The notes under the pieces were generated by a model. That model saw nothing but the letters and a program-made list of their open reading frames with translations. It was not told the origin of the DNA and searched no databases. A stretch of 64,000 nt of DNA from Nannobrachium achirus (taxonomy: Eukaryota; Chordata; Actinopteri; Myctophiformes; Myctophidae), in contig OY997656.1 of assembly GCA_963921795.1 (NCBI GenBank), positions 55,188,338 to 55,252,337 on the forward strand, given 5' to 3'. The position numbers and the translations under genes were made by a program. This document shows, piece by piece, positions 10,985-62,636 of this stretch. Positions within the stretch are counted from its first letter, which is position 1; each line of letters opens with the position of its first letter.

Positions 10985-11039
10985 AAGCGCGGGTGCAGTG
11001 GACTTGGCGTGACTAATGGTGACAAATTATAGACCTACC

Positions 11040-11765
11040 TAACATACTGGAAAGAGACAACCCAAAACCAAAGCAACATGGCATGCTATCTGCCACTAAA
11101 AAGAGAAATACATTAGCAGAATATCTGAACACAGTAAACGACCCAAAACTTAGGAAAGCCTTGACTAGGTACAGACTCAGCGAACACAGCCTTGCAATAG
11201 AGAAAGGCAGACAGCCAGACACAGACAGACCCCACTCCCAAGGGAAGATAGACTATGCACCCACTGCACACAATGTGGTAGAAACAGAGCTACACTTTCT
11301 AACCACCTGCCCACTATACCAAGACATCAGAGACACATACCCACAGATTACACACACGCAAAGTGAATTTGAAAACTCGACCAATGATGGAAAACTCCCA
11401 TACCTTCTGAGAGAAATACAACAATGTTCGAACACAGCTGCAAGATTTGTGAACTGTTGCGACAAAAGAAGGCTAGAAACACAACCACCCTAAGGACTAG
11501 AAACCATGGATTGGCATCTAGACCTACTGCACATACAGTATGAAACAGATGAGCTGATACCTTTAAATGCATTTTGAGAAAAATAATGCTGCTATTTGTA
11601 CCCTGTATATAAAATGTCACACTGCGACATAGCTCTGTTTACACAATGCTGTACCCCCTCCAATTATATGTTCCCCATTTTCAACTGTTTTTATGTATTT
11701 GTGATACTTGCTTTGGCAATGTAAACGTATTCTCATGCCAATAAAGCTCCTTTGAATTGACTTGA
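11040..11765 (+). pseudogene. 5'-truncated LINE, C-terminal ORF end and 3' UTR
   Basis: The frame from 11083 to 11493 (136 codons) contains RYRLSEHSLAIEKGR, a His-containing stretch and VVETELHFLTTCPLYQDIR. This is the C-terminal layout of fish I/jockey-type non-LTR polyproteins: the LS-H-L-IE-GR block followed by VE-E-HFL-CP-Y. Endonuclease and catalytic RT are absent. The 3' UTR continues to AATAAAGCTCCTTTGAATTG, the usual tail. The same 3' end reappears as the LINE-derived insert at 51418-51588. A 5'-truncated insertion, not a functional element. Confidence 0.8.
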
Positions 11766-11774
11766 ACTAAAATA

Positions 11775-23801: not shown

Positions 23802-24857
23802 ATGGCCGATGGCCACGAAGAGAACCCTTCGGACCTGGATGAGCTGCTTCGTGAAGAAGCAGCCATCCAGGTCTTCCCGCTCAATCCTCCCCCGGTTGAC
23901 CAACCCTACCGGGGGTTTTATTTTGATTGGGCGTTGGCAGTGATGGACGAAAGGGCCCATGGGGCTCAACCCGTCCGTCGGTGGGACTACGTAGAGGAAG
24001 AGGGCTCTGGGGAGGACCGTACTATTCCGGAAGTATGGCCTCTGACCTCCTCAGGGTCCGCTTCCTCTGGTTCCTCCCCAGAACCCCGTCCCAAAAGGGT
24101 GAGGGTTATGCAGCCAGGCCCTGGCTCTACCCCCCCGGGCTCATCCCACAATCTCTCTGTCCCAGAGCCAACCCAGGCAGGTGAGCCAGGGTCTGGCTCC
24201 TCACCCCGCCCTTCTCCCCTACCGCCATCACCTCTTGCACCTTTTATGTTGCCTCAGCAAGAGGGCTCTGGGGAAGGCCCTACCATCCCCAACGTCTGGC
24301 CTGCTTCCCCCAGCTCCTCTGGGTCCCCACCCTCGCCTGGCCCTGTGGAAGGGCCAGGCAGTCCAGGGGACTCGGATAACTCGGACAACTGGCCGTTGGC
24401 CGAGCTAAATAGGCGCTACCAGCGTCGAGCCATGGCAGCCCCTGTGCCCCTGCCCTCCTCAGGTGAAGATTCCATGCCAGACGACATGCCGTTGGCCGAC
24501 TGGTGGAATCAACGCCAAGGACGGGCATCGGCTAAGCCCTCATCCCCTGATCCCCTACCCGTGCCCCCCTCGCCTGGCCCTGCCCCAGTACCCCTGCCCC
24601 CCAGTCCACCAACTGGGTCCCCCTCATCCCCCCCTGATCCTCTACCCGTGCCCCCCTCGCCTGGCCGTGTGGAAGGGCCAGGTGAGTTTGAACGGGCAGA
24701 TGACCCAGCGTTCAATGACTGGCTGAATCACTATTTTAACGGCCCGGAGGGGGAGTTGGGGTCCTCATTTGGGGAGGAGGAGGAGGAACGAGGGTTTGAG
24801 GAGGTGGCGACAGCTAACGTCGCCAGCCCCCTCAATGTTTATGAATGTCACCCGTAA
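23802..24857 (+). CDS. Acidic, proline/serine-rich 351-aa protein, unknown family
   Basis: Single uninterrupted frame starting ATGGCCGATGG behind a TATA-like promoter. The N-terminus (MADGHEENPSDLDELLREEA) is acidic. The middle is Pro/Ser-rich with two EGSGE-x-TIP-x-VWP repeats. Three degenerate repeats follow: NWPLAELNRRYQRR, MPLADWWNQRQGR and AFNDWLNHYFNG. The tail ends in GEEEEERGF. No signal peptide, membrane segment or catalytic motif. It is much richer in GC than the flanks, and an open frame of this length in repeat-dense DNA suggests recent selection or recent arrival. The repeated acidic-aromatic motifs could be protein-binding or activation segments; that is a guess. The broken gene P1 follows in the same direction. 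It could be a gene of a large mobile or virus-like element. Confidence 0.6.
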   Translation: MADGHEENPSDLDELLREEAAIQVFPLNPPPVDQPYRGFYFDWALAVMDERAHGAQPVRRWDYVEEEGSGEDRTIPEVWPLTSSGSASSGSSPEPRPKRVRVMQPGPGSTPPGSSHNLSVPEPTQAGEPGSGSSPRPSPLPPSPLAPFMLPQQEGSGEGPTIPNVWPASPSSSGSPPSPGPVEGPGSPGDSDNSDNWPLAELNRRYQRRAMAAPVPLPSSGEDSMPDDMPLADWWNQRQGRASAKPSSPDPLPVPPSPGPAPVPLPPSPPTGSPSSPPDPLPVPPSPGRVEGPGEFERADDPAFNDWLNHYFNGPEGELGSSFGEEEEERGFEEVATANVASPLNVYECHP

Positions 24858-25196: not shown

Positions 25197-27576
25197 ATGG
25201 AGGTAACACCAATAACACCAGAGAAAGACGAAATAAAGCCCCCAGAAATGTTGAAAGGAGACATAACGCTTCCACTAGGACATGTTATTGTTACTGCACC
25301 AAGGGAGCGGTTGCGTCATATCCGCTTTATCTCGCACTCATCGTTTCTTCCCCGGTTTGCCAGACTGTATGCTGGGAGCATTTGACCAAATCGTGGAGGC
25401 AACAGTCTGGCCACGCGAGACTATCGAGCCGGGGACCCTCTCTAATATCACCCTTCCTATCCATTTCCTGTTCCTGCCCACCTCCCTCCCCAAACGGCAT
25501 ATCCCACATTGGCCGTTCTTAAAAAAGCATGTCCCACTGGCAGAGTTGTCACCCACCGCCCTGGACGAGTGGTTCCATGCGCATGGGACCACTCTGGCCT
25601 ACCCGGACGGCGGGTGGCAACTGCACTGGACGCTGGTGCCCGCGTCCTTCGTGAAGCCGAGTGGGTACCTGGGGAACACCGAGAAGGCGCAGCGGCTGTG
25701 CTTCAGCTACCAAAAAGCCATTGCCCTGAGTTTCCAGAGGCTCCTGCGGCGCATGTCTTTTGAGGAGAGAAGGAGGCCCTCTCTCCTCAAAAACAACTTT
25801 TCCGACACCGGAAGGTTTAACGTGTTGCCGCTAGGCCTGTCACGATTTACTAAACCCACGATTCGATTCGAATCACGATTCAAGGTTGACGATTCACGAT
25901 GTCACGATTTTTTCACGATTTTTTCAACAAATTTATTTTCCAGAGAAATTACCCAAAAAAATCCACAATTCTTACAATTCCATTATTTTTTTTGCTTTTA
26001 ACAATACTGTTTTCTCTTATGCTCTTTTCAATACAGTAGAACTATCAAATGACAAAAAACAACAATAACATTTCAGTTCACTTGTCTTCTCTTACAAGGA
26101 ATCCTGTATGTTTTAGATGTTCTCTTATCCTCTATACAGTAGCAAATAGCAAATGACAGATAGTGTAAACTTATCAATTCTTAAATGTCAAATCCTGTTC
26201 TTTTTTTAAACAACACTCTTACACTTTTTTCAATACTGTATCAAAGAATGCCTTTTTTTTGTGGTACATATCAAGCCAACTGTACTGTAAGCCAGGCACA
26301 AACTAAGGCATAATAACAACTCTTACCCTCTTTTCAAAATCAATAATTCATCAAAGTCAAGACCTAGTGTCTCATTGTGGATAGACTGTTCAAAGTCCCT
26401 GACTTTCTAACACACCATTCCACCAGCTTATATATTGAATGTGTCAATTCTTGTTTACCATTCCACCGGCTTATATATTGACTGTGTCAATTCTTGTTTT
26501 CACTAGAAACGTTGTTTCCACATTGTAACCAGTGGCAGAGACATGCATCTGTACGTAGCATTGTTGTTGTTAGCCCTTAGCACTGATAAGTGCTATGCTC
26601 TGTAGCAGCAAAGTAATGACACAGCACTCAACTAACTGCTCTCTTTGTCAATCGAAATCGCGGAGCTCTTCTCTGCAGCCCAATGGAGGCACGCTGGCAG
26701 CTGTGAGTGGGTGAGCCTTCCTACTGTAGCTGCCGCTGCCTGTGTCTGCCTGACGTTAGACGTTGAATGCAGAGACGTTGAAGACAGAATGGAGATTAAG
26801 TCGAGGGCGACCTCTGGTGGTCGAATCGCGATTCGTTTTTTAAAAAAAATCGATTTTCACCGTCCCCCAATAAAATCGATTTAAATCGATTTTTTCGTAA
26901 ATCGTGACAGGCCTAGTTGCCGCAGGACCAACCCTTCATCCTGGAACTGCTGGACAGGGCCATCGCCGACGTCGAAACGGCCCCCGGGCACAAGGATTAT
27001 GGTCACGCTAACCTGCTTCGGACAGAAGTCGCCGGCCCCGGTTGACCTCGGGGACATAGTCGCGGACACCGCCTCAGTCGAGGCGGTGTCCGTACACGCG
27101 GCTGTGTCCCTGAGGGACACCGACGGGTCGGTTGACCTTCTGTGGTCCCGCTTTGGACTTCACAGGATAATTGGCGGTCTCGGCAGGGTGTTCACCACCT
27201 ATGCCCTGCACGAGGCTGCCAATTATCAAAGCAACCTGACCCACAACACTGCCCCGGACTGGAACGACCGCCTCACCGCGGTGTGGCACAGTTGACGTTT
27301 GTGCAACTGTACACAGACGGGCCACACCTCCATCAGTCGCCGTTTTTTAAACACCCGGTGACGGCGGTTGTGTGTGGCACGGGCCTCGTCCACAGTGAGG
27401 TGGGGAAGAGCCAGTATGCGCGCGCTCGAAAGTACACCGCCAGGCTGGAGGGGGTGTTGCGCTTCTCGCGAGGTGACATCCCCTCCAGCCTAACCCCCAC
27501 TTCCCTGCTGGAAGTACCCCTCATCCTCCCCATGAGGGTTAGGGTTAGGACGAGGAAAAAATGTATACTGGAATGA
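25197..27576 (+). pseudogene. Broken gene P1, unknown family
   Basis: Protein-like frames run in series. MEVTPITPEKDEIKPPEML starts at 25197. A second frame from about 25380 includes HWPFLKKHVPLAELSPTALD and RLLRRMSFEERRRPSLLKNN. It continues across the 25832-26915 insertion into a segment ending near 27044. Two more frames then carry LLWSRFGLHRIIGGLGRVFT and GLVHSEVGKSQYARARKYTA, ending at 27576. At least three frameshifts plus the insertion make it non-functional. No family or motif recognised. A diverged relative is encoded on the minus strand at 42372-42570, so P1 is a real gene family. High GC and tight spacing behind the 351-aa gene suggest the two travelled together. Confidence 0.55.
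25832..26915. mobile_element. 1084-bp hAT-like transposon inserted in P1
   Basis: Ends TAGGCCTGTCACGATTTAC and GTAAATCGTGACAGGCCTA are perfect complements. GTTGCCGC flanks both sides (25824-25831 and 26916-26923), a perfect 8-bp duplication. Subterminal regions are rich in ATTCGATT/AATCGAT motifs. No transposase frame is visible, so it is non-autonomous. Duplication and terminus agree perfectly, so insertion is recent relative to its surroundings. Confidence 0.96.
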
Positions 27577-28955: not shown

Positions 28956-31931
28956 TTGTACATCGGAACGATCGGTGGTAGGATGACGACTGCTCAGCGC
29001 AACAAAAGTGGCAGTGCTACCGCCAAACAGGTTGCCTACAGCAAACAAATGCTTCTGAACATCAGAGAAGTATGTCAGACTCACCGATTACGGCCCGACC
29101 CCCTCACCTTATTCCCCGAATTGAGGAGGACTCAGCGGAGGAAGAGAGGCAGACGAGCCGGGACTCTGGTCCGGCTGAGGCGGCGAGCCCATAGAGCCCC
29201 ACTTCCTAGCCTGCTGCTGGCTAATGTACAGTCCCTGGAGAATAAACTTAGTGAACTACGGGCACGAGTCTTCTTCCAGCCCGACATCAGGAGATGCAAT
29301 GTGATCTGTCTCACAGAGACCTGGTTAACGGCTGCAACACCAAGCCATGCCATTGAGCCCATGGGCTTCTCTGTTCATCGGACGGATCGGGACACGGAGC
29401 TCGCGCAGAAGAAGACGGGTGGAGGCGTATGTCTCATGGTGAACCGGGCCTGGTGTCACGAGGAAAACATCACAACTGTTGTTTCAGTTTGTTCCCTAAA
29501 CCTGGAGTGTCTCCTGTTGCAGTGTCGTCCTGCCTGGCTCCCTCGTGAGTTTACATCGGTCACGATAGCCGCTGTTTACATCCCACCGCAGGCGAACAAG
29601 GACGCCGCACTCGAGGAACTCCATGGGCTGATCAGCAGACAGGAGACGGCTCAGCCCGACACTGCGCTGGTCATAGCCGGGGACTTTAATCACGCCAATT
29701 ACGCCAAAATAATGCCCAAATTACACCAACATATAACATTCAAGACGCGAGGCGAAAACACACTCGACCACTGCTACACTCTCTTCCGGGAAGGTTACAG
29801 AGCCCTCCCCCGCCCTGCTTTTGGCAAATCAGACCACTGCTCAATCCTCCTGCTCCCCGCCTATAGGCAGAGACTGAAGAGAGAGCCTCCGGTGCACAGG
29901 GCTGTGCGCCGGTGGTCTGACCAATCAGAAGCGATCTTGCAAGATTGTTTTGATCACACGGACTGGGAGGCGTTCAAGTCGACTGGGAATCTAGACGACT
30001 ACACCAACAACGTCACCACCTACATCAGGGAGTGTACAGAGGCTGTTGTTCCAGTCAGGAATATAAAGATGATGCCAAACCAGAAGCCATGGATAACCAG
30101 TGAGGTACGTGTAGCTCTCCACACACGATCTGTAGCCTATAACACTGGCTCAGTGGAGGAATATAAAAACTCACGTTACGCTCTCAGAGTGGCCATTACA
30201 CAGGCTAAGAAGGATTATGGTCAACGTATGGAGTCAAAACTCATCACCAACAATCCGAGGCACCTTTGGCAGGGGCTTCAAGCCATAACAGACTATAGGG
30301 GGCGCACACAGCAAACCCAACACACAACACCCACCTTTCCAGATGACTTTAACTCCTTCACTGCCAGGTTTGACCCCTCTGCTGGACCCTCTGGCACTGC
30401 TGGCCCATCTCACAACCCCATTGGTGAGCACCCACCTCTGCAACCCCCCCCTGCTGCCATGGGGAGGGGGGAGCAGACCCCCCCTTCAGAAATACCATCA
30501 CGCCCCCATTCCATCACCGGTGCTGACGAAGACTGCCCGCTCTCCATCAGCAGGGTTGATGTCTACCGCTCTTTCAAGCGGATCAACCCACGGAAGGCGG
30601 CTGGTCCGGACGGCATCCCGGGTCGTGTTCTGAAGGTCTGTGCTTACCAGTTGGCGGAGGTATTCACTGACATCTTCAATCTGTCTCTTTCCCTCAGCTC
30701 CGTCCCCACCTGCTTTAAAACCAGCACCATCATCCCCATTCCCAAGCAGCAGAAGGTGACCAGTCTAAATGACTGGTGCCCCATAGCCCTTACTCCTATA
30801 GTGAGTAAATGCTTTGAGAGCCTGGTTAAAGGACTTCTATGCCCAATGCTTCCTCCCACCCTCGACCCCCTGCAGTTTGCCTACAGAACCAACAGGAGCA
30901 CTGAAGATGCCATCTCACACGTCCTCCACATGGCCCTCTCCCACCTGGAGGGCAGGGGCACCTACGTGAGGATGCTGTTTGTGGACTACAGCTCCGCTTT
31001 TAACACCATAGTGCCCTCCAGGCTCTATGGCAAACTCCGGGACCTGGGAGTGAACACATCACTGTGCAACTGGGTCATGGACTTCCTGACAGACCGCCCC
31101 CAGACGGTGAGAGTGGCTGGTCAGTCTTCTTCCACACTGAGTCTCAGCATAGGGGCACCACAGGGCTGCGTCCTAAGCCCACTCCTGTACTCCTTGTACA
31201 CCTACGACTGCGTGGCGACCCAGACAACCAACCATGTCGTTAAGTTTGCTGACAACACGGCAGTGGTGGGTTTGATCTCTGGCGGCGACGAGTCGGCCTA
31301 CAGGGAGGAGGTAGCCACCTTGGAGAGGTGGTGTACAGACAACAACCTCTCCTTGAACGCCAGAAAGACCAAGGAGATCGTAGTAGACTACAGGAAGAAC
31401 AAAGACGAGGTCCAGCCAGTCACCATCAATGGCTCAGCGGTGGAGAGGGTGGACTCCTTCAAATGCCTCGGGGTCAATATAGAGAAGGACCTGACCTGGG
31501 ACTGCCATGTCACCGCAGTCGTGAAAAAGGCCCAACAGCGCCTGTATGGCCTCAGGCGCTTGAAGAAGTTCGGCCTGAGACCATCCACAATCAGGGACTT
31601 CTACAGGGGCACTATAGAGAGCCTCATCACAAGCAGCTTCACATCCTGGTATGGCAGCTGTACGGACAGAAACCGTAAGGCTCTGAGGAGGGTTGTTCGG
31701 ACTGCCGAGAACATCACCGGTTGTGAGCTGCCCAAGATGGAAGACCTCTACAACCAGCGCTGCCTCAACAAGTCCCTGAGGATCATTGAGGACACCACCC
31801 ACCCCCACAAACGACTTTTCTCCCCTCTTAAGTCAAAGAGGGTGAAGGGATACAAGATCCTCACGGCACGCACCACCAGGCTGAGGAACAGCTTTTTCCC
31901 ACAGGCCATCAGACTTTTAAATGCAAAGTGA
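28956..31931 (+). CDS. LINE polyprotein: APE endonuclease and reverse transcriptase
   Basis: One frame of 991 codons; the ATG at 28983 (MTTAQRNKSGSATAKQ) is an alternative start. The endonuclease domain (about residues 85-300) has LLANVQSLENKL, LTETWL, AGDFNHANY and SDHCSILLL. The reverse transcriptase has RKAAGPDGIPGRVLK (about 545), FVDYSSAFNT (about 675) and GAPQGCVLSPLL (about 732). The catalytic motif is FADN instead of FADD: codon 31254-31256 is AAC where GAC is expected, and the preceding C makes this a CpG-to-CpA change. LNDWCPIALTP likewise has Cys where related elements have Arg. The layout fits fish jockey/CR1-group LINEs (Rex1/Babar-like is possible). The frame is intact, but catalysis is probably lost. 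Confidence 0.9.
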   Translation: MYIGTIGGRMTTAQRNKSGSATAKQVAYSKQMLLNIREVCQTHRLRPDPLTLFPELRRTQRRKRGRRAGTLVRLRRRAHRAPLPSLLLANVQSLENKLSELRARVFFQPDIRRCNVICLTETWLTAATPSHAIEPMGFSVHRTDRDTELAQKKTGGGVCLMVNRAWCHEENITTVVSVCSLNLECLLLQCRPAWLPREFTSVTIAAVYIPPQANKDAALEELHGLISRQETAQPDTALVIAGDFNHANYAKIMPKLHQHITFKTRGENTLDHCYTLFREGYRALPRPAFGKSDHCSILLLPAYRQRLKREPPVHRAVRRWSDQSEAILQDCFDHTDWEAFKSTGNLDDYTNNVTTYIRECTEAVVPVRNIKMMPNQKPWITSEVRVALHTRSVAYNTGSVEEYKNSRYALRVAITQAKKDYGQRMESKLITNNPRHLWQGLQAITDYRGRTQQTQHTTPTFPDDFNSFTARFDPSAGPSGTAGPSHNPIGEHPPLQPPPAAMGRGEQTPPSEIPSRPHSITGADEDCPLSISRVDVYRSFKRINPRKAAGPDGIPGRVLKVCAYQLAEVFTDIFNLSLSLSSVPTCFKTSTIIPIPKQQKVTSLNDWCPIALTPIVSKCFESLVKGLLCPMLPPTLDPLQFAYRTNRSTEDAISHVLHMALSHLEGRGTYVRMLFVDYSSAFNTIVPSRLYGKLRDLGVNTSLCNWVMDFLTDRPQTVRVAGQSSSTLSLSIGAPQGCVLSPLLYSLYTYDCVATQTTNHVVKFADNTAVVGLISGGDESAYREEVATLERWCTDNNLSLNARKTKEIVVDYRKNKDEVQPVTINGSAVERVDSFKCLGVNIEKDLTWDCHVTAVVKKAQQRLYGLRRLKKFGLRPSTIRDFYRGTIESLITSSFTSWYGSCTDRNRKALRRVVRTAENITGCELPKMEDLYNQRCLNKSLRIIEDTTHPHKRLFSPLKSKRVKGYKILTARTTRLRNSFFPQAIRLLNAK

Positions 31932-50055: not shown

Positions 50056-50417
50056 AACCAAGAATAGAAACAGTTGCCTTACAGTGTCAATGTGTGCTGA
50101 TTTCAGACTGGCATGTCCATACGGGCCAGCCAGACAACAAGACAATTACTAAATAAAATAGGCATTATAATTTGCTTCATTTGGTGCTGTCATTTTTTTT
50201 CCATTTCCATTGGCACTAGCTGTCATATTATTTGTATTCCCTATTTCAAAGGAATACGTGTTCCATTCGGGAACGGAAGCCTTCCATTATCGTCCCTCCC
50301 TCATTCAATGTTAATTTAATTTCCTCTCTTTTTTTTTTATAATTTAGAGTAGCCAATTAACAGTATTTTTTAACAATCTTTTTCTTCCCAATTTGTTGTA
50401 TCCTACTGACTCCCGCC
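50056..50417. other. Unassigned sequence
   Basis: No gene seen. CTCCCGCC at 50410-50417 is the left target duplication of the next element. Confidence 0.5.
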
Positions 50418-50852
50418 CATAGGCGATTTTAAGGGGTGTCCTAGGGTGCACGTGCACCCCCTGGCCGCCAGGCGGCCATTTTGATTTATTTTTTTTGAAA
50501 AATATTTTTTTTTTTATTTTTTTTTTTAAATAAAAAATATATATATATATATATTTTTTTTTTTGTAATGTAACTTTATTTTATAATTATTAAATAAAAC
50601 AGTGATCGTGATTTGTAAAATGTGCGCAAAAAGAGAGGTGGAGGGGCAAGTATTTCAGCTTGCTTGCTTGCAATGTAAGACCTATCACTGCTTGGCGACG
50701 GCGCTGTTGGCAGACTTGGCAGGCACTGTGGGTGGGCTGTGAGATTAACACCTGTGCTGGCCGGCTCTGATATGATGACACACAATTCCTTGATTTCCTT
50801 ATCTGTTTCCGCCCGCCTAAAACAATATGGATACAGCGGCAGAGCAGCAATA

Positions 50853-53473
50853 ATGGCGAAACGAACTATAAATACAAAGACAATTGACCAATTCTTTATA
50901 AAAAAGAGCAAACCCAGTGCCACAACCGATAATTCATCATCAGGAAATGTGAACACGGGTTCACTCGACACTGACAGTAATGCTAATGAACGCGAACCAG
51001 AGGAGGTGGACGGAGCTTGCAGCAGCAGTGATCCAGCCACCGACATCACTGTGGAAGGCTCGCCGTTGCCGGAGGCCGGGGCCCCGGTTCCTCCACAGCA
51101 AGCAAGCCCCACTCCAGACTCAACTGTTGTTACCCCAGGCCCAGACCCAGAGGAGCCAAATGAAGCCAACTTTGTTCATGAAAGAGACCCTTGCCATGGC
51201 CCGGATAAAGCTAAGCAGTTTTTGGCTTTGGGTCCATATCAGCCAGAAGATGTAGAATGTCCATTAAAGACCGCTGGCGAAAAACAACGCAAATTCAGAA
51301 AGGAGTGGTTTAAAGATTTTGCCTGGCTGGAGTATAGCGTGCGCCATGACCGGGCGTTCTGCTTTCCATGTCGGGCCTTTGGTTCTGAGAACACCGAGCA
51401 AGCTTTCAGGAGGACAGGTAAATAAAGACACATCTCTGTTTACACAATGCTGTTGTACTCCCTCCAAGTGCATAGTCTATTATGTTCCCTTTTTTCAACT
51501 GTTTCGTTATATTGCTTTAATGCTTTGGCAATGTAATCTATGTTTTCTCATGCCAATGAAGCTAATTTAATTTGAATTGAATTTACAGGGTTTCAGGCAT
51601 GGAATAAGGCTAAACAAACTTTTCGTGACCATTCTACAAGAGAGAACCACATTGATGCCTCGGGCAGATGGCAGGGATACCTGGCGTCGCTGGAGAAGGG
51701 AAGCGTCGCGTCAAAATTGGATACCCAGAGACGGGCATTAGTAGAAGACAACCGTGACTATTTACAAGCCGTCATTCAGACGGTTTTATTCTGTGCTCAC
51801 CAGGGAATACCTCTAAGAGGACATGATGAAGGCGAGGACTCTTTAATGTGAGAGAACTCATGCAACTGCGTTCAAATGACAGTGAAGTAATTAGACGGAT
51901 GTTTACCCTGAGAGAGAAGCGCTACACCTACGTCAACAGTGAGTCTCAAAACGAAATTCTTGATTTAATGGCTAAACAAGTGCTAGAAAAAATTGTATCT
52001 GAAGTTAAGAATGCAGGTGTGTTTTCCATAATTGCAGATGAAACAATGGATTTGTCAAAACATGAACAAGTTGCTCTCATTCTCCGTTATGTATCTGAAT
52101 CACTAGAGATTAATGAACGCTTCATTGGGTTTTATCGTACAGAGCTGACTGATGGTGCTTCACTTGCTGCTTTAATTAAAAACACACTGGAAAAATTGGA
52201 CTTAGATATAAACGCTCTGAGGGGCCAGTGTTATGATGGGGCAGCCAGTATGCGTGGTCCTTATAAAGGGGTTGCATCCCGTATCCTAAAAGAAAATCCC
52301 CTTGCTTTCTATGTTCATTGTCATGCGCATATATTGAATTTATGTGTTGTTGACATGGTTTCTAATGTGCCTACAGTCCGAAATGCTTTTGGTACACTTC
52401 AGACACTAAGGAATTTCATTGAGGGCAGTGCTAAGCGCCACGCTGTATTCGAACGAATGACAGCTAGTAAACCATTCGCAGGCGGGGCTGAAACACTCAA
52501 GTCGCTCAGTGACACCCGGTGGAATTGTCGTTTGGAGGCTATAAAAGGAGTGTTAGATAACTATGATGAACTCGTTAATACTCTAGAAGAAATAGCCGAA
52601 TCCAATGATAAAGCAGGTGTAGAAGCAAATTCACTGCTTAAAAATATCCACGATTTCAGCTTTATTTACTGTATGGTCTTCATGCGCAGGGTTTTAACTC
52701 AGACAGATAGTCTAAATAAACTGTTGCAGACAAGAAACTACAAATATGACACTGCATTTGCAACAGTAAAAGCGACTGTTAAAACCATTAAGGATATTAG
52801 AGGGGGAGAGTTTGCTTCTCAGGTTTTCCAGTATGTTAGTCAGATCTGTGAAAGAAATGGTTTTGCTGGTCCTAGTGTGCCACGCAAATCAGTGTTTAAC
52901 ACAGCAGCGGATTATTACCGATGTGATATTCTGTATAGAACACTGGACACACTCATACAACAGCTTGAGGGGCGCTTTTCTGAAAACGATTTTCATATCC
53001 TCCAGTGTCTTGCTGATGTTGTAACCTCAGATAGCCCTCCAGAAAAAAAAAGTGTGACAGACGTATGTCAAACATACACTCTTGATGCAGATGTTCTGAA
53101 AGCTGAAATCTCTGTAATGACTTCCATGTACAGGGAAGAGAATGTGCGCAAAAAAAAAGAAATGGAGGACACGACACTGTTTGAAAAGAAACTTGCTTTT
53201 TTTCAAGAGAAGGGAATGCATAATTCTGATTCATTTGGTACATTAAAACACGTCTACACACTGTACCTCACCATACCAGTTACGAGTGCTTCAGCTGAGC
53301 GCAGCTTCTCTACTTTGAGACAACTAAAAACGTATTTACGGACAACCATGACTGATAAAAGAGTGTCAGATATAGGCATTTTACAGATTGAGAAAATACA
53401 CGAAATTAAAGTGCAGAAAATAATTGAAAGGTTTGCAAGTGCCAAAACCCGGAGGCTGCAGTTCATTGTGTAA
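50853..53473 (+). pseudogene. hAT transposase (TTF zinc finger, hAT dimerisation domain)
   Basis: Start chosen at ATGGCGAAACG (MAKRTINTKTIDQFFIKKSK), typical of ZMYM/TTF-type hAT transposases; an in-frame ATG 114 bp upstream is less likely. A Ser/Pro/Asp-rich linker precedes a TTF-type zinc finger (EWFKDFAWLEYSVRHDRAFC, FPCRAFG). After the intron at 51418-51588 comes GFQAWNKAKQTFRDHS. A frameshift at about 51845, after EGEDSL, breaks the frame; the second part starts NVRELMQLRSNDSEV. RNase-H-like core: IIADETMD (first catalytic Asp), CYDGAASMRG (second Asp), HCHAHILNL, LSDTRWNCR. The C-terminus SASAERSFSTLRQLKTYLRT is the hAT dimerisation region. With the frameshift the copy is probably inactive, though only just so. 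Confidence 0.92.
51418..51588 (+). mobile_element. Intron made of a LINE 3' end
   Basis: Starts GTAAAT and ends TTTACAG, so it has legal splice sites. From about 51429 to 51580 it matches the LINE 3' UTR at 11625-11765 (CTCTGTTTACACAATGCTG, TTTGGCAATGTAA, TTCTCATGCCAAT, TTTGAATTGA). ACAGG occurs on both sides, as a target duplication would. Splicing GT-AG would give the codons for T-G-F-Q-A-W with no change to the frame, matching the usual TGF--W block of this transposase family. Confidence 0.85.
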
Positions 53474-53912
53474 TAAGGATGTGTCTACTATTTGTTTTTG
53501 TGAAATGCTTATTTGACACTGTAAATGACTGCTTGATTGCTTGATGAATGATGATTAACTTGATGTTTGGCTTTGCTGCCTCTGTCTGCAAAATAAGTAA
53601 ATAAATCCTATACTAGACATGCTCATGGTGTCTAGAAAAAGAAGCACCTGTTTTACACTTTTTTTGTTTATATTGTGTTACATTTGGGTACAAAATTAAC
53701 TGCAGAAATCCGCTAAAACAACATTACAAAACCGCTAATATCCGCAATTTGCGCGCACGCGAACGTCGTGCACGCGCGCTGCGCGCGCGTGCATGAGGCG
53801 CGGGCGTGCATGAGGTAATAGAGGTCGTGCACCCCCTGCTGGAAGAGGCTAGAATCGCCTATGCTCCCGCCCAACTCTCCCCGCTGACAGGTGCTACCCC
53901 CAGTCCGTAGGA

Positions 53913-60806: not shown

Positions 60807-62183
60807 TCAATGGAGAGGCCCATGTAACATACTGAAACTCTTGTCACATTGTTTACAGTGGAAAGCCTTTTCTTTGGTGTGGACAAGCTGGTGTGTCTTC
60901 AAGTGAGTAATTTGACTGAAACTCTTGCCACACAGTTTACAATGGAAAGGTTTTTCTCCTGTGTGGACAAGCTGGTGTGTCTTCAGGTTTTGTAACAGAC
61001 TGAAACTCCTGTCACATTGTTTACAGTGGAAAGCCTTTTCTTTGGTGTGGACAAGCTGGTGTGTCTTCAAGTGAGAAATGAGACGGAAACTCTTGCCACA
61101 CAGTAGTTTACAACGGAAAGGTTTTTCTCCTGTGTGGATACGCTGGTGTGTCTTCAGGTTTTGTAACATACTGAAACTCTTGTCACATTGTTTACAGTGG
61201 AAAGCTTTTTCTCCCGTGTGGACAAGCTGATGTCTCTTCAACTGAGAAATGCGACTGAAACTCTTGCCACACAGTTTACAGTGGAAAGGTTTTTCGCCGG
61301 TGTGGACACGCTGGTGTGTCTTCAGGGATTGCAACACCCTGAAACCCTTGTCACATTGTTTACAATAGAAAGGTTTTTCTCCGGTGTGGATACGCATGTT
61401 TACCTTCAGGTCATCTGACTGACTGAAACTCTTGCCACACAGTTTACAGTGGAAAGGTTTTTCGCTGGTGTGGATCCTCATGTGTGCCTTCAGAGGACCT
61501 GACTGACTGAAACTCTTGCCACACAGTTTACAGTGGAAAGGTTTTTCGCCGGTGTGGATACGCAGGTGTGTCTTCAAGGATTGCAACAGACTGAAACTCT
61601 TGTCACATTGCTTACAATGGAAAGGTTGTTCTCCGGTGTGGATACGCAGGTGTTTCTTCAAATGATATGACTGTCTGAAGGTCTTGCCACACTGTTTACA
61701 GTGGGAAGGTTTTTCTCCCGTGTGGACAAGCTGGTGTTTATTCAAGTGAGAAATCTGACTGAAACTCCTGCCACACAGTTCACAGTGGAAAGGTTTCTCC
61801 CCAGTGTGGATACGCTGGTGTGTCTTCAGGGCTTGTAAGAGACCGAAACTCTTGCCACACAGTTTACAGTGGAAAGGTTTTTCACCCGTGTGGACAAGCT
61901 GGTGCTTCTTCAGGGCTTGTATCAGACTGAAACTCTTGTCACATTGTGTACAGCGGAAAGGTTTTTCACCCGTGTGGACACGCTGGTGGTTCTTCAAGTT
62001 AGAAATGTGACTGAAACCTTTGTCACATTGTTTACAGACGTGCGTTTTCGTTCCCGTGTCAGTCGGACGACGTCTCTTTACCTCCGGTGGAGTTGAAGTC
62101 CTGGAGGACGGTTGACTGCTGTAAGCCCATGGTTCTTCCGGGTTTCCTTGCTGCTGGCTCGTTGGCGGGAACAGCGGGTCCAT
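60807..62183 (-). CDS. C2H2 zinc-finger protein, 14 fingers plus a truncated 15th
   Basis: Start at MDPLFPPTSQQQGNPEEPWA, the first ATG; TTGCAG 13-18 bp upstream may be a splice acceptor, so an upstream exon is possible. A 45-residue leader (Ser/Pro-rich, KRRRP basic patch) is followed by C2H2 fingers of 28 residues joined by TGEKPF linkers. Fingers mostly alternate between a CKQCDKSFS-LQ type and a CKLCGKSFSQI type, indicating growth by two-finger duplications. Three are abnormal: finger 8 has Asn for its first His (LKVNMRIH), finger 12 has an extra Leu (CKLLCGKSF), and finger 15 stops after KSFSMLHGPLH without histidines. No KRAB, BTB or SCAN domain. Expected to be a nuclear DNA-binding factor; target unknown. 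The single large finger exon is typical of fish ZNF genes. Confidence 0.9.
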   Translation of the reverse strand: MDPLFPPTSQQQGNPEEPWAYSSQPSSRTSTPPEVKRRRPTDTGTKTHVCKQCDKGFSHISNLKNHQRVHTGEKPFRCTQCDKSFSLIQALKKHQLVHTGEKPFHCKLCGKSFGLLQALKTHQRIHTGEKPFHCELCGRSFSQISHLNKHQLVHTGEKPSHCKQCGKTFRQSYHLKKHLRIHTGEQPFHCKQCDKSFSLLQSLKTHLRIHTGEKPFHCKLCGKSFSQSGPLKAHMRIHTSEKPFHCKLCGKSFSQSDDLKVNMRIHTGEKPFYCKQCDKGFRVLQSLKTHQRVHTGEKPFHCKLCGKSFSRISQLKRHQLVHTGEKAFHCKQCDKSFSMLQNLKTHQRIHTGEKPFRCKLLCGKSFRLISHLKTHQLVHTKEKAFHCKQCDRSFSLLQNLKTHQLVHTGEKPFHCKLCGKSFSQITHLKTHQLVHTKEKAFHCKQCDKSFSMLHGPLH

Positions 62184-62636
62184 GGTCAAAGCTGCTGCAA
62201 TGCATGGGCTGCAATGGTCAAGGAATGTAATTATTTGTGTGACCTGACGATCACAGATTGGTCACAGGGCAATTACCAGCTGAAGTGAATATCAAATCGA
62301 TGTATCTTTGAGTGGGATAGTCCCTCTTGTAGGTGATGAAGGCCTCCTCGATGTTTCTCATCAGACTGTCGTTCAGACGGTGCAGTCTGGTTTTAAGCAG
62401 AGCTGATTCAAAGCTCACGTCGTCATTGTGTTGTCACTATGATGTCAGCCGTGACCAAATATGGAGTTCCATGTCCGTTACTGAGTCTATGAATGTCTGT
62501 ATGTGTGTCTTTGTTTGTGTGTTTATGCCTGTAGCCAATCATGGGTTAAGGGCCATGGGCCAATCAGAGAGAGGAAAAGGGTGACGTTATAATATCGAGG
62601 CATACATAAGGGCCACAAGAGGGGAAAGAAATCAAA
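62184..62636. other. Upstream region of the zinc-finger gene
   Basis: Contains the probable acceptor and possible intron of the minus-strand gene. CCAATCAGAG and GACGTTATAA occur near 62560-62592. No exon identified. Confidence 0.45.

Follow-up and report, generated by a model that had tools for sequence, protein, structure and literature searches.

Analysis of a 64,000-nucleotide stretch of DNA (hereafter the window, whose positions are used throughout) identified a hAT-type DNA transposon whose transposase ORF contains the 3' tail of a LINE. We consider it probable, at roughly 0.85, that this tail became a spliceable intron and was then multiplied by transposition of its host element. Comparisons among genomic copies and related proteins show the LINE origin of the insert, its position, its exact fit to the codons, the mobilization of the element together with the insert, and that the transposase was still being selected once the insert was in place.

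The genome searched, which judging by its repeats resembles that of a fish, comprised 1.66 Gb in 564 contigs, with the window located on contig C19. The hAT copy is 3446 bp long and lies on the forward strand at 50418-53863, with boundaries defined by comparison with other copies and by the flanking 8-bp target site duplication CTCCCGCC, the left (50410-50417) and right (53864-53871) copies of which match perfectly. Its short inverted ends, CATAGGCG and CGCCTATG, and the 8-bp target duplications are those of a hAT element, as are the transposase domains, since the third piece of the window-copy transposase matched PF05699 (hAT dimerisation, E 2.3e-10) and PF14291 (DUF4371, E 3.2e-18). The first transposase exon, an open frame at 50853-51417 (forward strand), runs from the ATG to the putative donor over 188 codons plus 1 nt and ends in ...RRT + G. 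The second, at 51589-53473 on the same strand, resumes as GFQAWNKA and contains the DUF4371 and hAT dimerisation regions. A private 10-bp deletion near 51844 breaks the frame of exon 2 in the window copy, which is therefore nonfunctional, although four sister copies are open. Among 15 aligned rows, exon 1 was free of stops in 12, broken in 2 and N in 1, and exon 2 was open over 630 codons in 6. Both exons (188 + 630 codons) were open in 4/15 rows (L009, L013, L015 and L016), in which the insert is the sole interruption of an open 818-codon frame. A preliminary description of this DNA had reported the transposase as interrupted by the insert; this was confirmed, but the interruption is not a feature of one copy, as it is found in all 15 exon-2 copies, and the window frame is additionally broken by the 10-bp deletion.

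The proposed spliceosomal intron (GTAAAT...TTTACAG) is 171 nt long, lies at 51418-51588 on the forward strand and would consist of a 5'-truncated LINE 3' tail plus a target duplication. Sequence alignment placed positions 51427-51581 of the insert against a LINE 3' tail at 11626-11766 (forward strand) with 73% identity over 157 columns (E 1e-21), so that the insert is, nearly end to end, a LINE 3' tail, as had been claimed. Upstream of that tail, at 11023-11487 on the forward strand, is an open remnant of 155 aa that was judged by eye to be like a LINE ORF C-terminus, and a Pfam search with it returned no match. Away from the hAT copies listed, the 3' part of the insert (51515-51585) also had at least 23 matches with 88-91% identity (40 of 632 candidates scored). 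Thirteen of these 23 were aligned; they shared the tail ~tgctttggcaatgtaaac...ctcatgccaat[a/g]aagctcctttgaattgaattgaa, and their 5' ends varied by eye, as in 5'-truncated LINE copies. An intact 3' end, variable 5' truncation, a tail ending in a TTTGAATTGAA-type repeat and ACAGG on both sides all point to insertion of a LINE. One LINE copy (L072) has ATACATAACGACA, resembling the start of the insert in the diverged hAT copy L044, TACATAATGACA. The insert has AATGAA where the window LINE has AATAAA; loss of the poly(A) signal by selection against premature polyadenylation was considered and rejected, because AATGAA also occurs in 6/13 of the other LINE copies.

The insert is bracketed by two copies of ACAGG on the forward strand (51414-51418 and 51585-51589), which bear out the target duplication that the preliminary description had proposed. 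The first copy gives the donor AG/G (the slash marks the exon-intron border), and the second gives the acceptor AG together with the first base of exon 2. In the donor ACAG/GTAAAT, the G may come from the target or from the LINE and the T comes from the LINE, and the acceptor TTTACAG/G is supplied by the second ACAGG. Exon 1 reads in frame into the insert and stops as ...RRTGK-stop (GGT AAA TAA), and the exon 1-exon 2 join reads AGG ACA GGG TTT CAG GCA TGG (R-T-G-F-Q-A-W). The GT-AG logic put forward earlier, in which the donor combines the duplicated AG(G) with the first base of the insert and the second AG serves as the acceptor, thus holds for an intron at 51418-51588, and its removal would restore the codons exactly, as had been predicted, giving a join that fits intron-less relatives. 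These features, with the borders ACAG/GTAAAT...TTTACAG/GG, are those of a U2-type intron. The branch-point consensus is yTnAy, and a branch-point-like CTAAT is present at 51562-51566 (forward strand), with its fourth base lying 23 nt upstream of the end of the intron; at the place aligned with this motif, L044 has CTCAT, and both are consensus matches only. The length of the proposed intron is 171 nt in the window, 170 nt in the diverged copy L020 and 186 nt in L044.

The identity of the insert to the window LINE copy was 82.7% in L044, 77% in L020 and 73% in the main family. It is thus highest in L044, the most diverged hAT copy, as would be expected if the LINE tail has been decaying inside the hAT family. 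Four sequences (L044, L020, L019 and L024) have the donor GTACAT, and the remaining 11 rows that could be read have GTAAAT. The duplex formed with the U1 end was estimated at -7.6 kcal/mol for GTACAT and -8.8 kcal/mol for GTAAAT, against -15.2 kcal/mol for a perfect site. The donor has no G at +5 and the pyrimidine tract of the acceptor is interrupted, so that, with such weak U1 pairing, splicing is possibly inefficient. Our guess, which rests on one event, is that the improved donor GTAAAT might have helped the subfamily with the most copies to expand.

A search of the genome with exon 2 found 15 places (15/15 candidates scored), and the insert was at the same position in all 15. The donor is covered by N in L021; in L022 the acceptor is disturbed and exon 2 reaches a stop four codons on in the aligned frame. 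The ten main-family reference copies had 0 or 1 substitution each within the insert, with 11 gap columns in addition in L022, and the donor is kept in L024, a derivative with an internal deletion that is not among the 15. Element ends were examined in 20 copies or derivatives, 12 of which had both ends readable. Perfect 8-bp target duplications flanked 11/12 (8/9 exon-2 copies and 3/3 deletion derivatives), the twelfth, L016, having a duplication with 3 mismatches; two of the 11, those of L019 and L020, are uninformative because they are located in TG/CA repeats. Perfect duplications around insert-bearing copies indicate that the element transposed with the insert aboard. Transposase can be supplied in trans, and mobility alone is therefore no proof of splicing. 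As a separate observation, the acceptor region of L022 is rearranged (AACAGGG...TACAGGG), leaving two possible AGs, so that L022 offers a natural experiment on which acceptor is chosen. A form of the element with an internal deletion is also abundant (L027, L028; 20 places that match query bases 1-110 only, two of them read). Its breakpoints correspond to window positions 51514/53135 (in L028 also 50653/50959), and it retains a large part of exon 1 together with 97 nt from the start of the insert.

Comparisons with homologous proteins showed the site without the insert. Among the 120 proteins listed of 308 matches, 66 matched both flanks at E 1e-3 (68 at E 1) and were assessed at the site. The flanks joined with zero residues between them in 43 of the 66, with 1-9 residues in 17 (in the comparison at E 1, such rows were mostly those where the exon-1 match ended short of the exon-1 end), and overlapped or were out of order in 6; the 57 residues expected from a translated insert were present in 0/66. 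The nearest protein found in the same 120 of 308 listed matches, P0001 (796 aa, on a 3.1-kb contig), has 66% identity over the C-terminal query and reads FRSKGFQAWHKA across the site. When P0001 was compared with the genome, 57 of 1857 candidates were scored, and these yielded at least 71 matches. The insert-bearing family matched it in two pieces, with at least 11 N-terminal pieces listed that have one TAA each, and at least 39 places with distant hAT sequence in this genome crossed the site in one piece (29-36% identity, 36 of them stop-free; 57 of 1857 candidates scored). A distant hAT copy, L076, was re-read and is continuous at the site. The preliminary description had implied that distant hAT relatives would lack an intron at this place, and this agrees with the 43/66 proteins joining with zero residues and the at least 39 genomic places in one piece, none with an intron there.

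Close relatives gave a different picture from the one anticipated. The preliminary description had expected them to have a continuous ACAGGGTTTC, and none did so in this genome, where 15/15 exon-2 places bear the insert and two matches to an empty-site pattern are not hAT. No empty-site copy or spliced retrocopy was found in the genome within 3 mismatches of this 24-base flank-to-flank junction pattern, since the two matches, each with 3 mismatches, do not continue into hAT sequence (control 0 and 0). The listed protein matches to the C-terminal piece (120 of 308), to exon 1 (2 matches) and to a flank-joined 165-aa fragment (11 matches) included no relative with more than 66% identity spanning the site, and those to the same three queries included no near-identical protein corresponding to the spliced product of the family. 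The absence of the insert is thus established for relatives at up to 66% protein identity, not for close DNA relatives. One candidate intron-less relative, at C24, was rejected because it turned out to have arisen by deletion from the insert-bearing family.

To assess selection after the insertion, we compared the observed changes with a null model in which the same base changes were placed at random on the same coding sites; several such tests were run, and their P values are uncorrected. L020 is about 8% diverged and L044 about 11-15%, and both carry the insert, so the insertion predates their split from the main family. In L020, 29/61 changes were silent against 15.7+-3.3 expected (P 1e-4; 4e-4 with 5000 draws), with dS 0.055 and dN 0.017. 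In L044, 46/120 changes were silent against 29.1+-4.6 expected (P 6e-4) and 5/120 led to stops, with dS 0.172 and dN 0.068 in exon 2, the first half of which gave P 0.21 and the second half 0/5000 draws. The silent excess in L019 was not significant (P 0.18). Signals in exon 1, which would be separated from the remainder of the protein if the message were not spliced, were weaker: in L020, exon 1 alone gave P 0.13, exon 2 before its Met P 0.15 and the two combined P 0.046, and the exon-1 pieces of L044 (67 codons) gave P 0.011. The selection signal is diluted because L020 and L044 are single, now broken copies. Within exon 2 of L044 there is also a palindromic, MITE-like insertion (L044:3120-3474, by eye).

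The insert itself changed at about the silent rate, with 6/159 substitutions relative to the window in L020 and 25/156 in L044. Its indels relative to the window (4, 3 and 6 bases in L020; 18, 1, 6, 3, 5 and 2 bases in L044) show that its reading frame was not preserved. Relaxed constraint within the insert (L044, 25/156) and constraint in the exons, seen as the silent excess, are as expected of a U2-type intron. Selection thus continued to act on the transposase while it carried the insert, from which it follows that the insert was probably removed from the mRNA, and the contrast between exon selection and silent-rate insert drift is the strongest argument for splicing that the sequences offer.

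From these comparisons we infer splicing of the insert and the following order of events. Target-primed reverse transcription would have placed a 5'-truncated LINE 3' tail in the hAT transposase ORF with the short duplication ACAGG. By chance, the 5' junction would have created AG/GT(ACAT), and the T-rich LINE end with the second ACAGG an AG/G acceptor. With AG/GT and AG/G at the joins, the spliceosome could excise exactly the insert and one target duplication, which would leave the transposase intact. The resulting two-exon transposon would then have kept moving by cut-and-paste, bringing the intron to the 15 places found.

The insertion might instead have been plainly disabling, with the copies being dead passengers mobilized in trans by an intact insert-free hAT, present or former. 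The ends of a DNA transposon suffice for mobilization in trans, members of this family with internal deletions have clearly been moved in that way, and the window copy itself is broken. This explanation nevertheless seems quite improbable to us, because all 15 exon-2 candidates bear the insert and the empty-site pattern has no match in hAT sequence, four copies are otherwise fully open, and a silent excess is seen between copies that all carry the insert, albeit with weaker signs in exon 1. We regard as very improbable indeed that an old hAT intron was hit later by a LINE and that the ACAGG repeat is mere splice consensus. The consensus alone would predict AG/G at both intron borders, but LINE sequence extends almost from border to border (51427-51581 of 51418-51588), and no break is seen at the codon in distant hAT proteins or in distant genomic copies.

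Intron formation from the LINE tail thus remains our preferred reading, and it could be refined, without being excluded, by a two-product element. Unspliced messages would then encode an N-terminal fragment of 190 aa, and the transposase would be made only from a spliced fraction under regulation, so that the retained intron brakes transposition, as retention of the third intron does in the Drosophila P element. The in-frame stop two codons past the last full exon-1 codon (GGT AAA TAA) and the change from the weaker donor GTACAT in older copies to the better GTAAAT in the most numerous subfamily are consistent with this arrangement, but the N-terminal fragment has no Pfam match, and we hold the proposal to be unlikely. 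We are similarly doubtful that the LINE intron is now a functional part of the hAT element, in which regulated retention would set the transposase level, the donor improvement from GTACAT to GTAAAT would have gone along with the rise of the most numerous subfamily, and a splicing switch of one TE would have evolved from the debris of another.

Among the titles and abstracts listed from the open-licence literature, we found no report of a LINE-derived intron within a transposase gene. The origins of vertebrate introns have mostly been inferred from single old events. In maize, insertion of the transposon Ds into an exon is reportedly spliced as an intron, in work attributed to Giroux in 1994; that intron would resemble the hAT case in being a spliced exonic transposon insertion, and would differ in involving a plant, a DNA transposon and a host gene. 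TE-derived introns, including those of fish, are already known; as far as literature searches show, what appears new is a LINE tail as the border-to-border source of an intron, and a transposase gene as the host that spreads it. The intron would spread by cut-and-paste because the host gene is mobile. One probable LINE-to-intron event is kept in the 15 copies found at different loci, two of them diverged, and the LINE is still multicopy in the same genome. These 15 insert copies are natural replicates for studying splicing by context, the order of steps from insertion to intron, and the benefit or burden of the intron to the gene.

Seven routes by which introns may be gained have been proposed, transposon insertion among them (Yenerall and Zhou 2012, PMC3443670), and the hAT case resembles that route in its class of mechanism and its AGGT border logic; in the table row for transposon insertion, the events come from Oryza, Drosophila, Oikopleura and Zea, with no vertebrate, unlike the hAT case. 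Each family of Introners gives rise to many introns independently, and most such families show at least one sign of DNA transposition; a survey by Gozashti et al. (2022, PMC9860276) recorded them, among animals and land plants, in no more than two groups, each of them animal. As in the Introners described there, a TE in a coding frame provides the new intron body, the splice sites come partly from the target duplication, and the mRNA length is usually unchanged. Unlike them, the hAT case would be one LINE insertion and one intron, multiplied since the host is a transposon. The introner-type gain proposed in the preliminary description therefore stands as regards a TE insertion with splice sites from the target duplication, but this would be a single intron gain, and we did not file the insert as an Introner because a single insertion event was seen.

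Two introns of the notothenioid gene slc26a2 consist of transposon-like sequence, one with its GT-AG inside its repeats (PMC12357937). Like the proposed hAT intron, they are recent TE-made introns in a fish gene, with GT-AG derived from direct and inverted repeats, but they involve the inverted-repeat element NTE-1 and a host gene, unlike the LINE tail inside a mobile gene seen here. Melanocortin receptor genes of fish have also gained introns, for which pieces of SINEs, of the LINE UnaL2 and of a hAT have been tabulated (PMC3151243); in the rows concerned, and unlike the hAT case, the repeats are parts of longer host-gene introns and are not shown as a border-to-border source.

Elsewhere in the window, the ORFs at 23802-24857 (351 aa, rich in proline, serine and glycine) and 25282-26001 (239 aa) had no Pfam match at E 0.1. 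A 991-aa LINE ORF at 28956-31931 had a reverse transcriptase match and a weak endonuclease match, and a 460-aa ORF on the minus strand at 60807-62189 contains, by eye, a C2H2 zinc-finger array.
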